A stretch of DNA of 33,892 nucleotides from Paracoccaceae bacterium (GTDB lineage Bacteria; Pseudomonadota; Alphaproteobacteria; Rhodobacterales; Rhodobacteraceae): NCBI GenBank assembly GCA_024226455.1, contig JAAELR010000364.1:1-33892 (forward strand). Reading direction: 5' to 3'. The notes below the pieces were generated by a model. The model searched no databases, was not told where the DNA came from, and saw only the letters and a program-made list of their open reading frames with translations. Both the position numbers and the translations under genes were made by a program. Shown piece after piece: positions 548 to 33,892 of this stretch (the stretch's first letter is position 1; the number at the start of each line of letters is the position of its first letter).

Positions 548-1027
548 TCAGACAGCGCCCTGCTGCGGTGCCATATCGACCCCTTCAATGTCTGCCTCGG
601 CCACCAGATCGGCAACCAGATCGCGGGCCGCACGAGTCCAGGCGGCGCGTTCGAGGCTCTCGAACAACGCCTTGACAACGTCGTCATAGCTCATGTCGGC
701 GGCCTCGGGCGGGCGCTCCTCATAGGCGGCACGGCAATCGGCCTCGGTGACCGGATCAGGCTCGATACGCTGGTCGATATAGCTGCGGATCAGAGCCTCT
801 TCCGGGCTTTCCTCGCGGCCTTCGCCCAAATTCCTGGGCTCTGGCGTCAGACAGGCCATGGTCGCGGCCTGCAACAGCAGCGCGCGCACTGCCAGCGCCC
901 GCGCCGCCGCCCGCCAAGCCAGGCCCGGCTTGTCTTTGGGCGCCCGATGCATCTGGGCCTCGGCGGCAATTTCTGCCGCCGGGACCACCTGGCCATTGAC
1001 CACAACCTCGGGGAACAGAGGTTTCAT
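548..1027 (-). CDS. nar-operon SurA/parvulin-like accessory protein lacking its PPIase domain
   Basis: This 159-residue protein is the last gene of the nar operon, 11 nt after narI. The ATG at 1027 is chosen because AGGAAG lies just upstream; the open frame extends further but into narI. In many denitrifiers narI is followed by a PpiC/SurA-like peptidyl-prolyl isomerase of about 250-290 residues. The N-terminal helical region (about 1-110, ending TEADCRAAYEE) and the C-terminal helix (about 132-155, ERAAWTRAARDLVADLV) look like that family. The roughly 100-residue parvulin domain expected between them is absent, and only a short linker joins the ends. If expressed, it could act only as a holdase-like chaperone, not an isomerase. 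The role in nitrate reductase assembly is inferred from position. Family assignment is moderate. Confidence 0.7.
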   Translation of the reverse strand: MKPLFPEVVVNGQVVPAAEIAAEAQMHRAPKDKPGLAWRAAARALAVRALLLQAATMACLTPEPRNLGEGREESPEEALIRSYIDQRIEPDPVTEADCRAAYEERPPEAADMSYDDVVKALFESLERAAWTRAARDLVADLVAEADIEGVDMAPQQGAV

Positions 1028-1731: not shown

Positions 1732-2448
1732 CTAGATCATGCCGCCGGCCGCGTCGGCCGCTTGGGGTTTCGGCGGGACCGGGTCCATCCGGGCCAGCAT
1801 GTCGCGCGTCACGGGGCATCCCGCGTTGGGATCGGGGCCGAAGGTCACCTCAGCCTCTTGCCAGACCGCATCCAGAGCTTCGAGGTCTTCGGGGTCGTCG
1901 TCGGCGACGGTCAGCAACTCCTGCACCGCCTCCGAGGTCTTGGCGACCCCCCCCAGCTCTGCCAGCGCGGCCAGCACCGGGGCATAGACGCTCTCGCGCC
2001 GGGCCAGCCGTTCGGCCAGCGCCGCCAGGATATGCCCGGCGTCGGCCAGAAGCTCGCGCGCCTCGGCATCCGACCGGGTCGACAGGAACTCCAGCAGCAC
2101 TGGCAGGTGATCGGGCAGTTCTGTCGCTGCCAGATCGTAGCCACCGGCCCGATAAGTCTCCAGCAGGTCGACCATCGCCGGACCACGCTCGCGGCTTTCG
2201 CCATGGACGTGCTCGAAGAGATTGAGCGACAGGGTTCGCGACCGGTCGAAGAGCAGGACATAGCGTTCCTGCAGACCATAGAGATCACCCGTGGAGAGGT
2301 CCTGCAGCAGCGGACGCAGTGCCCGCTGTGTCTGCTCTGGCAGAATGGCCTCTTCGGCGAAGACCTCGGCGATCTCGCTCGACGCGGCGAGAAGATCGAC
2401 CGAAGGGTAGGTCAAAAGCGCCGACAGCGCCTTGTAGGTCCTGATCAT
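1732..2448 (-). CDS. narJ: Nitrate reductase maturation chaperone (TorD/NarJ family)
   Basis: NarJ is a cytoplasmic private chaperone that holds apo-NarGH until the molybdenum cofactor is inserted and then allows membrane attachment. The start at 2448 (MIRTYKALSALLTYP) gives 238 residues and overlaps the narH stop as ATGA, a typical translational coupling. The upstream in-frame extension lies inside narH and is not needed. The sequence is helical and acidic, with the family pattern LLTYPS near residue 13 and SLNLFEHVHGESRERG near 80-95, the most conserved NarJ segment. The proline-rich tail (PVPPKPQ) is variable in the family. Confidence 0.95.
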   Translation of the reverse strand: MIRTYKALSALLTYPSVDLLAASSEIAEVFAEEAILPEQTQRALRPLLQDLSTGDLYGLQERYVLLFDRSRTLSLNLFEHVHGESRERGPAMVDLLETYRAGGYDLAATELPDHLPVLLEFLSTRSDAEARELLADAGHILAALAERLARRESVYAPVLAALAELGGVAKTSEAVQELLTVADDDPEDLEALDAVWQEAEVTFGPDPNAGCPVTRDMLARMDPVPPKPQAADAAGGMI

Positions 2449-3965
2449 TTCATCGCCTCCCTGGGGGTCACCAGCCGGCGCGAGCCAAAGAGCTTGCCAC
2501 CGCCCGGCCCGGTTGAACAACCGTTGCCGTTGGTAAAGCCGCAGCCGCCGCGCAGGTCATAGGCATCTTCGACCTGTTCACGGTGGGTGGTGGGCACCAC
2601 GAACCGGTCCTCGTAGTTGGCCAGCGCCATGATCTTGTACATGTCCTCGATCTGCAGCGGGTCGAGCCCGACGCGTTTGGCGATCTCCAGATCCACGACG
2701 CCGTCCACGGTTTTCGACCGCATGTAGCCGCGCATGGCCAGCATCCGCTCCAGCGCGGTCACAACCGGCGCCTCGTCACCTGCCGTCAGCATGTTGGCAA
2801 GGTACCTGACCGGGATACGCAGGCTGGACACATCGGGCATGTCGCGGTCGATACCGATCTTTCCGGCCTCGGCGGCGTTCTTGATCGGGCTGAGCGGCGG
2901 GATGTACCAGACCATCGGCAGCGTGCGGTATTCCGGATGCAGCGGGAACGCCACTTTCCAGTCCATCGCCATCTTCCAGACCGGGCTGTTGCGTGCCGAT
3001 TTCAGCCATTCCTCGGGCACACCCTCTTTGCGGGCGGCTTCGATTACCTCGGTGTCGTTGGGATCGAGGAAGATACCAAGCTGCGCATCATAGAGGTCGG
3101 TTTTGCCCTCGACCGATGCCGCCTCGGCGATCTTGTCGGCGTCATAGAGCATGACACCCAGATACCGGATCCGGCCCACGCAGGTTTCCGAGCAGACCGT
3201 CGGCATGCCGCTTTCGATGCGCGGATAGCAGAAGGTGCATTTCTCGGATTTGCCGCTTTCCCAGTTGTAGTAGATCTTCTTGTAGGGGCAGCCACTGACG
3301 CACATCCGCCAGCCGCGGCATTTCTCCTGGTCGATCAGGACAATGCCGTCCTCTTCGCGCTTGTAGATCGCGCCCGACGGGCACGACGCGGCGCAGGCCG
3401 GGTTCAGGCAGTGTTCGCAAAGCCGGGGAAGATACATCATGAATGTATTCTCGTATTCCCCATAGATCTCTTTCTGCACGCCCTCGAAGTTGTAGTCCTT
3501 GGACCGTTTCGAGAACTCGCCACCCAGGATCTCTTCCCAGTTCGGACCCCATTCGATCTTTTCCATCCGCAGCCCGGAAACCTTGGATCGTGGCCGGGCG
3601 GTGGGGAACGCCGTCATCGTGGGCGCCGATTTCAGGTGGTCATAGTCGAAATCGAACGGTTCATAGAAATCGTCGATTTCGGGCAGGTCCGGGTTGCCGA
3701 AGATGTTGGACAGGATGCGCCATTTGGCGCCCTGCTTGGGCTGCAGCTTGCCCGACCGGGTCCGCTCCCAGCCGCCGTTCCAACGGTCCTGGTTTTCCCA
3801 GTCCTTCGGATAACCGATACCTGGCTTGGTTTCGACATTGTTGAACCATGCGTATTCAACGCCGTCGCGGCTGGTCCAGACATTCTTGCAGGTGACCGAG
3901 CAGGTATGACACCCGATACACTTGTCCAGGTTCAGCACCATTCCGATTTGTGCGCGTACCTTCAT
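2445..3965 (-). CDS. narH: Respiratory nitrate reductase beta subunit (Fe-S)
   Basis: NarH is the cytoplasmic electron-transfer subunit between NarI hemes and NarG. Its 506 residues match the family. Four cysteine groups are visible: C16-C19-C22-C26; CEHCLNPACAASCP near 180; CRGWRMCVSGCP near 213, where Trp replaces one cysteine as expected for the [3Fe-4S] cluster; and CTFCYPRIESGMPTVCSETC near 240-260. This gives three [4Fe-4S] and one [3Fe-4S]. It begins 3 nt after narG with a good SD (GAGGAGG) inside the end of narG. Confidence 0.98.
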   Translation of the reverse strand: MKVRAQIGMVLNLDKCIGCHTCSVTCKNVWTSRDGVEYAWFNNVETKPGIGYPKDWENQDRWNGGWERTRSGKLQPKQGAKWRILSNIFGNPDLPEIDDFYEPFDFDYDHLKSAPTMTAFPTARPRSKVSGLRMEKIEWGPNWEEILGGEFSKRSKDYNFEGVQKEIYGEYENTFMMYLPRLCEHCLNPACAASCPSGAIYKREEDGIVLIDQEKCRGWRMCVSGCPYKKIYYNWESGKSEKCTFCYPRIESGMPTVCSETCVGRIRYLGVMLYDADKIAEAASVEGKTDLYDAQLGIFLDPNDTEVIEAARKEGVPEEWLKSARNSPVWKMAMDWKVAFPLHPEYRTLPMVWYIPPLSPIKNAAEAGKIGIDRDMPDVSSLRIPVRYLANMLTAGDEAPVVTALERMLAMRGYMRSKTVDGVVDLEIAKRVGLDPLQIEDMYKIMALANYEDRFVVPTTHREQVEDAYDLRGGCGFTNGNGCSTGPGGGKLFGSRRLVTPREAMK

Positions 3966-33178: not shown

Positions 33179-33892
33179 ATGGATCGAAATACCCTTGAGA
33201 AGCTTAGCAAGCCGGAATTGGTTGAACTCATTCTGAGTTTACAACGCCCTTCGAAGACGTCCCGCACGTCCTCAAAGCCGCCATCGACAGATAAGAAAGC
33301 CCAACGTGCGCAGTCCAAGCCGGGCGGAGCCAAGCCCGGCCGCCAGGGTCACAGCCGTTCTCTTCACGCCACTCCCGACGAGATTGTCGATCATCGGCCC
33401 GACAGATGTTCTGAGTGCGCCACCGAGTTGCCGCCGGATTTGCAGGCCGAAATCATCGGCGAATACGACGAGATCGAACTGCCGCCGATTGCGCCTTTGG
33501 TGTTCCGCCACCGCAGATTGCGCGTGTGTTGCCCGCATTACCGCGCCCGGGTCAAGGGGGACCTCCCAGACGCTGCGACCGGAACCCCGTTCGGCCCTCG
33601 CCTGCACGCACTTGCCCTCTATCTGAAGACCTACCAGTCGGTTTCCTTTGCCCGGCTGCCCGTAGCCCGGCAGTCGATACGCAGTATCGATGAGAGGGGG
33701 TATGTTCCCTCTCGTGGTTTGCTAGCAAACCACTGCCGGGCAGTGGATGAGGTGTTCGGTGTGAAGGTGAGCCAGGGCACTCTGGCCAATATGCTCAAAC
33801 GCAGTCATCGGTCATTTGAGGCCGCCCGGCAGGAGATTATCAACGAGTTGCGCCAGGCGGACGTTGTAGCCAGCGATGAAACCGGGGTGCGC
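33179..33892 (+). CDS. tnpC: IS66-family transposase (TnpC), partial, with in-frame insert
   Basis: The 238 codons run to the window edge without a stop. The N-terminus has the IS66 leader (LEKLSKPELVELIL, then RTSSKPPSTDKK near 29-40), a zinc-knuckle region (CSEC at 77-80, CCPHY at 117-121), the conserved block GTPFGPRLHALALYLKTYQSVSFARL (135-160), then VFGVKVSQGTL (192-202). The first catalytic aspartate is in ASDETGVR (Asp232). Between Leu160 and about Arg187 lie roughly 25 residues that the family lacks, encoded by the palindromic insert at 33659-33741. The second knuckle reads CPHY instead of CPHC. Both changes suggest a non-functional or altered transposase, though the frame is open. 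The rest of the DDE domain is outside the window. Confidence 0.88.
   Translation, partial: MDRNTLEKLSKPELVELILSLQRPSKTSRTSSKPPSTDKKAQRAQSKPGGAKPGRQGHSRSLHATPDEIVDHRPDRCSECATELPPDLQAEIIGEYDEIELPPIAPLVFRHRRLRVCCPHYRARVKGDLPDAATGTPFGPRLHALALYLKTYQSVSFARLPVARQSIRSIDERGYVPSRGLLANHCRAVDEVFGVKVSQGTLANMLKRSHRSFEAARQEIINELRQADVVASDETGVR
33659..33741 (+). repeat. Palindrome-packed in-frame insert able to fold as a cloverleaf
   Basis: A closing stem of 10 perfect pairs, GCCCGGCAGT (33665-33674) with ACTGCCGGGC (33732-33741), encloses three hairpins. They are TCGATAC-GCA-GTATCGA (33674-33690), GAGAGGG with CCCTCTC (33692-33713, 8-nt loop), and the perfect 20-mer GTGGTTTGCTAGCAAACCAC (33714-33733). An alternative stem, CCACTGCC-G-GGCAGTGG (33730-33746), overlaps the right end. 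Relative to IS66 TnpC the net addition is about 75-81 nt and keeps the frame open. A 5-bp repeat, CTGCC, at 33656-33660 and 33733-33737 could be a target duplication, though it implies a 77-nt period. It is not a tRNA by arm lengths. Exact ends are uncertain. Confidence 0.75.

Follow-up and report, generated by a model that had tools for sequence, protein, structure and literature searches.

Two facing copies of a probable palindromic mini-element in an IS66-type transposase gene of a Paracoccaceae bacterium

REPs and REPINs are palindromes of 20-50 nt that are present in many copies, with stems that vary between families; they can form facing dimers, some are intragenic, and they make no target duplication, according to the available part of PMC3733652. 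In the same portion of that paper the CGTC-tagged REPs are common in Alphaproteobacteria and lack a known transposase, the CGTC repeats being unlinked to tyrosine transposase genes and only fortuitously associated with other transposase genes. The TnpA-REP work describes bulged hairpins with a GTAG tag, as far as the accessible text of PMC8266576 extends. The RPEs of Rickettsia are palindromes lying inside reading frames, and they keep the frames of their host genes open (PMC3733652, available part). MITEs are short, non-autonomous and dispersed, with a target duplication and the terminal inverted repeats of a parent insertion sequence (IS). The ends of IS200/IS605-type elements and of their MITE-like derivatives comprise a hairpin with an unpaired base, with a one-sided tetranucleotide target and no duplication. 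Lastly, the mobile bypass elements (byps) of yeast mitochondria are mobile hairpins inside reading frames, with a length similar to that of the unit described here.

We have analyzed a stretch of 33,892 nt from a Paracoccaceae bacterium (the window), which ends within an IS66-type transposase gene, tnpC. The family to which it belongs, the Rhodobacteraceae, consists mostly of marine bacteria. This gene probably carries two copies of a non-autonomous palindromic mini-element, whose family has spread through the Rhodobacteraceae mostly in transposase genes. The unit family is real and widespread; we read it as REP- or MITE-like with a new sequence and habitat, and it is apparently undescribed. 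A literature search, with most subscription papers and preprints outside its reach, found no published description of it.

A sequence-only reading of the window had proposed a structured, in-frame and stop-free palindrome at 33656-33746, adding about 25 codons to an IS66 transposase. That description is correct. The surrounding frame matches the IS66 transposase domain and stays open across the stretch, and the region 33650-33755 folds with an energy of -54.2 kcal/mol (z -4.67), which was equalled by none of 200 shuffled sequences. Exactly 25 codons are absent at this site in an alignment with five uninterrupted IS66 relatives, from Microvirga, Methylobacterium nodulans (ISMno2), Agrobacterium vitis, Pseudomonas K-62 and Aureimonas, which are 58-60% identical to the window tnpC over the aligned part. 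The open frame is what would be expected of a normal coding segment of the transposase, yet the five relatives lack these codons and the same DNA recurs in unrelated genes, so that we give this explanation virtually no weight.

The same reading had taken a cloverleaf of three hairpins to be the moving element, and in this it has to be revised. Removal of both units at the coordinates in the table leaves a tnpC that reads ...SFARLPGMFDEVFG..., co-linear with SYERLQSAFADLFG in the relatives, and each of three other choices of boundary broke the frame. Since exactly two excised stretches restore co-linearity, two units have been inserted 10 bp apart. A single cloverleaf insert is ruled out, as the middle 10 bp are tnpC sequence. 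Without two inverted copies of one unit the cloverleaf would have neither its closing stem nor its middle hairpin, and the strong fold energy arises because the two units fold together. Thus the palindromic insert is real, and it comprises two insertions of a single mobile hairpin.

Table. Positions of the tnpC frame and its two hairpin units in the window.
Feature	Coordinates	Strand	Basis
Frame of the IS66-type tnpC, still open where the window ends, containing both units	33179..33892	+	PF03050 DDE_Tnp_IS66, E 5e-07; uninterrupted relatives
Hairpin unit 1 (37 bp), antisense to tnpC, CCTCTC...ACG on the minus strand	33661..33697	-	Comparison with uninterrupted relatives and boundary trials
tnpC DNA between the units, 10 bp, part of neither	33698..33707	+	Comparison with uninterrupted relatives and boundary trials
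Hairpin unit 2 (38 bp), in the sense of tnpC, CCTCTC...GTG, with GATG after it as the target	33708..33745	+	Comparison with uninterrupted relatives and boundary trials

The unit is about 36-45 bp in length, with a left end CCCTCTCR, a covarying stem-loop and a right end CTGCCGGGCA-RYG. The ends hardly vary among 131 sites in transposase clusters, being CCCTCTC followed by G or A on the left, and CTGCCGGGCA followed by R, Y and G on the right. Nine stem pairs were scored in 69 distinct units of 41 nt; 93.9% were standard pairs compared with a mean of 70.9% and a maximum of 75.4% when partners were shuffled as a control, a comparison that ignores kinship between the rows and in which the shuffle does not give a probability. 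Most of the nine pairs occur as several pair types. An unpaired A at position 11, in the 5' arm, is found in 59 of the 69 units. Folded singly as DNA, four example units were modestly better than their shuffles (z -0.2 to -1.8). Remnants that partly keep the end sequences and have no hairpin were seen at L103 and on the minus strand of L113 near 5035, which suggests deletion inside the palindrome. When the fetched loci were searched for larger elements with the ends of the unit, they showed just five orphan right ends and no parent IS; we read these five as decayed units.

The boundaries of the insert could be defined by comparison with an uninterrupted homologue in the data at hand at 68 of 132 sites. 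The insert ran from CCCTCTC to RYG at 49 of these, was one base shorter at 11 and took another form at 8; both window units fall in the class that is one base shorter, starting CCTCTC. No target duplication is visible at the compared sites, including the window and a locus in genome G007, where the same IS position occurs with and without the unit and the two versions otherwise differ by point changes. Insertion is usually precise at the target Y|GA(T/C)G, with GA(T/C)G following the unit in most cases. At 131 sites the bases to the right of the unit are G (78%), A (64%), T or C (85%) and G (59%), and the base to the left is C (73%), with no consensus on the left beyond this one base. On the bottom strand the target is C(A/G)TC, lying on the 5' side; together with the lack of duplication this resembles the layout of HUH/Y1-type transposition. 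A wider set of 250 sites forms 170 groups by position and orientation. The largest has 12 sites, all at the same IS5 position and between them of several stem types, and thus favored positions have been hit, or their units replaced, repeatedly.

Exact copies of the unit were found in 48 of 149 sampled genomes of the Rhodobacteraceae, with a maximum of 29 per genome, and a reversed control pattern was found in none of the 149. The genome from which the window derives has 17 exact copies by a stricter pattern. When that genome was searched with 33656-33746 there were nine matches, all of which except the window's own match covered the query partially. It was from these partial matches that the shorter repeating unit was recognized, present twice in the window in opposite orientations. 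Several contigs of this draft genome (including C120, C145 and C364) end at or near units or the ISs that carry them, and copy numbers are therefore probably underestimated. In a sample across the class, 5 of 385 genomes matched, four from the family of the window and one from the other 380. A scan of GTDB contigs gave at least 119 stretches with the unit pattern; among the 80 matches listed, 63 bear names that we place in Rhodobacterales and 17 lie outside, several of the latter being chance matches with no hairpin. Good units in transposase-type frames were found in Cohaesibacter, Labrenzia and the gammaproteobacterium Vreelandella neptunia. The units thus cross the borders of classes, probably carried by their IS. 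Two unit queries matched 101 and 10 plasmid records, including plasmids of Dinoroseobacter shibae, Leisingera, Phaeobacter and Sulfitobacter. The suggestion that the palindrome is a mobile passenger, for which the sequence-only reading had looked to dispersed copies with conserved ends and covarying stems, is borne out, all three being found.

Of 321 pattern matches, 55 were discarded by a hairpin filter. For the analysis of host genes, sets of 188 and 250 distinct sites were made with stricter filters for ends and hairpin, excluding sites too near the end of a contig; at least seven of the 250 rows resemble chance matches (L036, L050, L093, L123, L144, L148 and L149). Transposase homology was scored against the Pfam-labelled cluster representatives of flanking frames; a Pfam scan covered 126 and 130 of the 132 flank frames. 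By this measure 163 of the 250 sites lie in transposase homology or within 30 bp of it, a further 25 lie within 600 bp, and 62 are without a match. The labels include rve/HTH_21 (IS3 type), DDE_Tnp_1 and DUF4096 (IS5 type), Transposase_mut (IS256), Transposase_20 (IS110), TnpB_IS66 and zf-IS66, IstB (IS21) and Y2_Tnp (IS91). A dehydrogenase cluster and a topoisomerase cluster were also labelled, and these came from chance matches or from an intergenic form. Among the 62 unmatched sites are the two units of the window and other IS copies that the reference does not contain, together with chance matches and members of an intergenic subfamily. We read 32 sites by eye (31 of the 62 and one other), of which 19 were transposase-like, two like a relE/higB-type toxin of a toxin-antitoxin pair and one rhs-like, with 10 left unassigned; the transposase types presumably include IS1182, IS630, IS21 istA and IS30 among others, judged from their motifs.

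Four annotated plasmid stretches contain 165 CDS, 10 of which are transposases, and 16 units. Two of these units lie in transposases, 14 in gaps in the gene table with no CDS, and none in the 155 non-transposase CDS. The gene table omits pseudogenes, and those CDS-free gaps with units that were examined read as IS remnants. Four weak matches in or overlapping other annotated genes (L184 3395, L185 6456, L185 9442 and L187 7402) were not counted, as each has at least three mismatches to the end rule, nor was L186 30352, which overlaps a counted unit.

Some units are found in other settings. Intergenic-looking units at L189, L190, L192, L193, L194 and L176 (all in genome G123), L054 (Leisingera ANG1), L069 and L104 have an extended 3' context, ...RYGGGnCGnGAGTTTATTTnGCAAGATGAA or similar, that is conserved outside ISs. 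Such units may represent the source of the unit family or a form of it that has been domesticated. A pattern search for it in 100 genomes of the family, a set without the genome G123 in which it was seen, returned none. In the IMG/VR contigs L302, L310 and L313 units occupy one position in what appears by eye to be a phage DNA cytosine methyltransferase-like gene; their stems differ, and the frame continues across the unit in L313 but not in L310. At L068, L219 and L305 the units share a position in a relE/higB-type toxin gene or next to it, and at L088 a unit at 3826 adjoins an apparent tRNA gene, both as judged by eye.

ISs that carry units have multiplied. Genome G013 contains six copies, with differing flanks, of a 1385-bp IS3-type element with four units (38, 40, 38 and 38 bp), and 3-bp duplications can be seen by eye at three of the six. 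With the units left out the element has an open frame of 308 residues. In the two contigs of this genome we found no close full-length copy free of units; other relatives are fragments, either 74% identical over 62 residues with two stops or 78-81% identical over about 30 residues, the rest being either at most 39% identical or short pieces at 53-59%. Among the six copies we counted 3 synonymous and 14 non-synonymous changes in the two frames, and selection is not visible since they spread. Genome G071 (one contig) has four unit-bearing IS5-type copies, all with a common stop codon, and their next relative is 70% identical. Plasmid pDSHI04 of D. shibae has three copies of an IS with two units. 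In genome G007 one IS5-type gene contains units of 40, 38 and 39 bp, and a second copy, 88% identical, has all three; dN/dS for the pair is 0.43. Over 16 pairs of interrupted genes dN/dS ranges from 0.13 to 1.54. Values below 1 in some of them run against the expectation for dead genes, and the evidence on selection is mixed. Purifying selection on the interrupted genes was set aside, the signal being mixed over the 16 pairs and invisible in G013. The simplest reading is that the broken ISs were moved in trans by enzymes that are no longer present.

The units have no general fit to reading frame or transcript. Relative to the gene, 65 are sense and 66 antisense (131 sites), or 84:79 in the wider set, and counted from CCCTCTC the length is not a multiple of three at 152 of 188 distinct sites and divisible at 36. 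Keeping frames open is therefore not a general property of the element. Nor is a structured RNA supported, given the parity of orientation; no Rfam covariance model matched at its gathering score in the 12 loci searched, which gave just two sub-threshold matches (isrB, E 0.53, and BASRCI153, E 0.36). If the unit were removed from the gene product by translational bypass or RNA splicing, interrupted transposases could still function. Leaving the units out does restore long frames in some cases, interrupted ISs have multiplied with no close full-length unit-free copy present, and some interrupted genes have dN/dS below 1. The parity of orientation and the frame-breaking lengths nevertheless make such removal unlikely, the left flank offers no consensus beyond one base, the changes among the G013 copies look neutral and the G071 copies multiplied despite their common stop codon. 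We consider it highly improbable. The length of spanning frames proved of little use as a test of excision: over 188 sites, frames of at least 300 aa numbered 43 with the unit excised and 41 unexcised, and in an earlier test the unexcised sequence scored best. There is little signal because GC-rich DNA gives long chance frames on both strands. A classical REP system, with a dedicated RAYT/Y1 transposase that has since been lost in many hosts, would explain a bulged hairpin of REP size with a CRTC-like flank and no target duplication. Y1_Tnp is somewhat commoner in unit-bearing genomes (8 of 40) than in genomes without the exact pattern (3 of 40), and in one of eight Y1 loci scanned, L292, there are units on both sides of the Y1 gene (1411-1890), one at 898-939 (+), 472 bp upstream, and a decayed inverted one at 2016-2049 (-), 126 bp downstream. 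Against this, Y1_Tnp is absent from the unit-rich genomes G082, G013, G090 and G002, the seven other loci have no unit, and the L292 units lie away from the ends of the gene in frames that we read as IS remnants, so that we think a REP system rather unlikely, with L292 remaining a lead. Y1/RAYT is not supported as the partner, being present in a minority of carriers and neither universal nor clearly linked, and no mobilizing enzyme could be tied to the element in the genomes and loci examined.

The habitat itself might be a matter of survivorship. An untargeted element could insert at any Y|GAYG, with insertions outside ISs purged or remaining single while those in dispensable, self-copying ISs survive and spread. 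The target motif is short, the non-IS sites are also in accessory or mobile genes (toxin-like, rhs-like and phage methyltransferase-like by eye), and unit-bearing IS copies do multiply, all of which would fit. Many intergenic units would then be expected, and yet all 16 on the plasmid stretches are in transposases or in table gaps; moreover with 170 groups among the 250 sites, copying alone falls short of the excess. We regard survivorship as a tenable if tentative account. That a dedicated system recognizing mobile DNA places hairpins in transposase genes, as a heritable insertional silencing of ISs or anti-transposon mutagenesis, strikes us as improbable. Our preferred reading, that of a non-autonomous mini-element spread mostly in transposase genes, has its own difficulties in the dN/dS values below 1 in some genes, the intergenic subfamily, the 62 of 250 sites without a transposase match and the presence of Y1_Tnp in few carriers.

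The nearest described kind of element is apparently the CGTC-tagged REP, those described in the available parts of PMC3733652 and PMC8266576 being without these arms or this habitat. The unit resembles REPs and REPINs in its palindromic stem with covarying pairs, its dispersed and numerous copies, its size and variable stems, its facing pairs and intragenic sites, and the lack of target duplication (PMC3733652, available part). It differs in having no GTAG or CGTC tag at the foot of the hairpin, the CRTC-like motif being in the target flank only, and in its long constant arms CCCTCTC and CTGCCGGGCA-RYG. Y1 genes are found in the minority of carriers given above and, in the eight loci scanned, are not flanked at their ends by units, and the sites are concentrated in transposase homology where REPs are mainly extragenic. 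We have not filed the unit as a REP because tag, RAYT link and extragenic habitat were each looked for and not found. It is short, non-autonomous and dispersed like a MITE, and unlike MITEs shows no target duplication; in the fetched loci no terminal inverted repeats of a parent IS were seen. Like the RPEs it lies inside reading frames, and in contrast to them it mostly breaks the frame, in hosts that are mostly transposases (PMC3733652, available part). Comparison of layout alone gives a likeness to IS200/IS605-type ends in the unpaired base, one-sided target and lack of duplication, with the difference that there is one hairpin in place of two ends and no linked Y1 gene. Parity of orientation and the lack of a take-off consensus distinguish the unit from byps.

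On our reading the units probably inactivate the transposase, and the broken ISs would then be moved in trans. Movement of the hairpin by a single-strand recombinase is possible. The unit itself might move in folded, single-stranded form, with an enzyme provided in trans making the cuts, which we put forward tentatively. Carriage by ISs would bring the unit between replicons and species. As a working guess, and a doubtful one, the units may concentrate in ISs because they prefer mobile DNA in which single strands are exposed.

If the main habitat of the unit is the transposase genes of other elements, it would act widely as a hyperparasite of insertion sequences, or as a brake on them. The units may explain a part of the broken transposases in Rhodobacterales. 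Cultured strains with units, including Dinoroseobacter shibae and those with Leisingera, Phaeobacter and Sulfitobacter plasmids, offer test cases for the question that is now posed, of what agent brings a hairpin of 40 bases into ISs that belong to many unrelated families.
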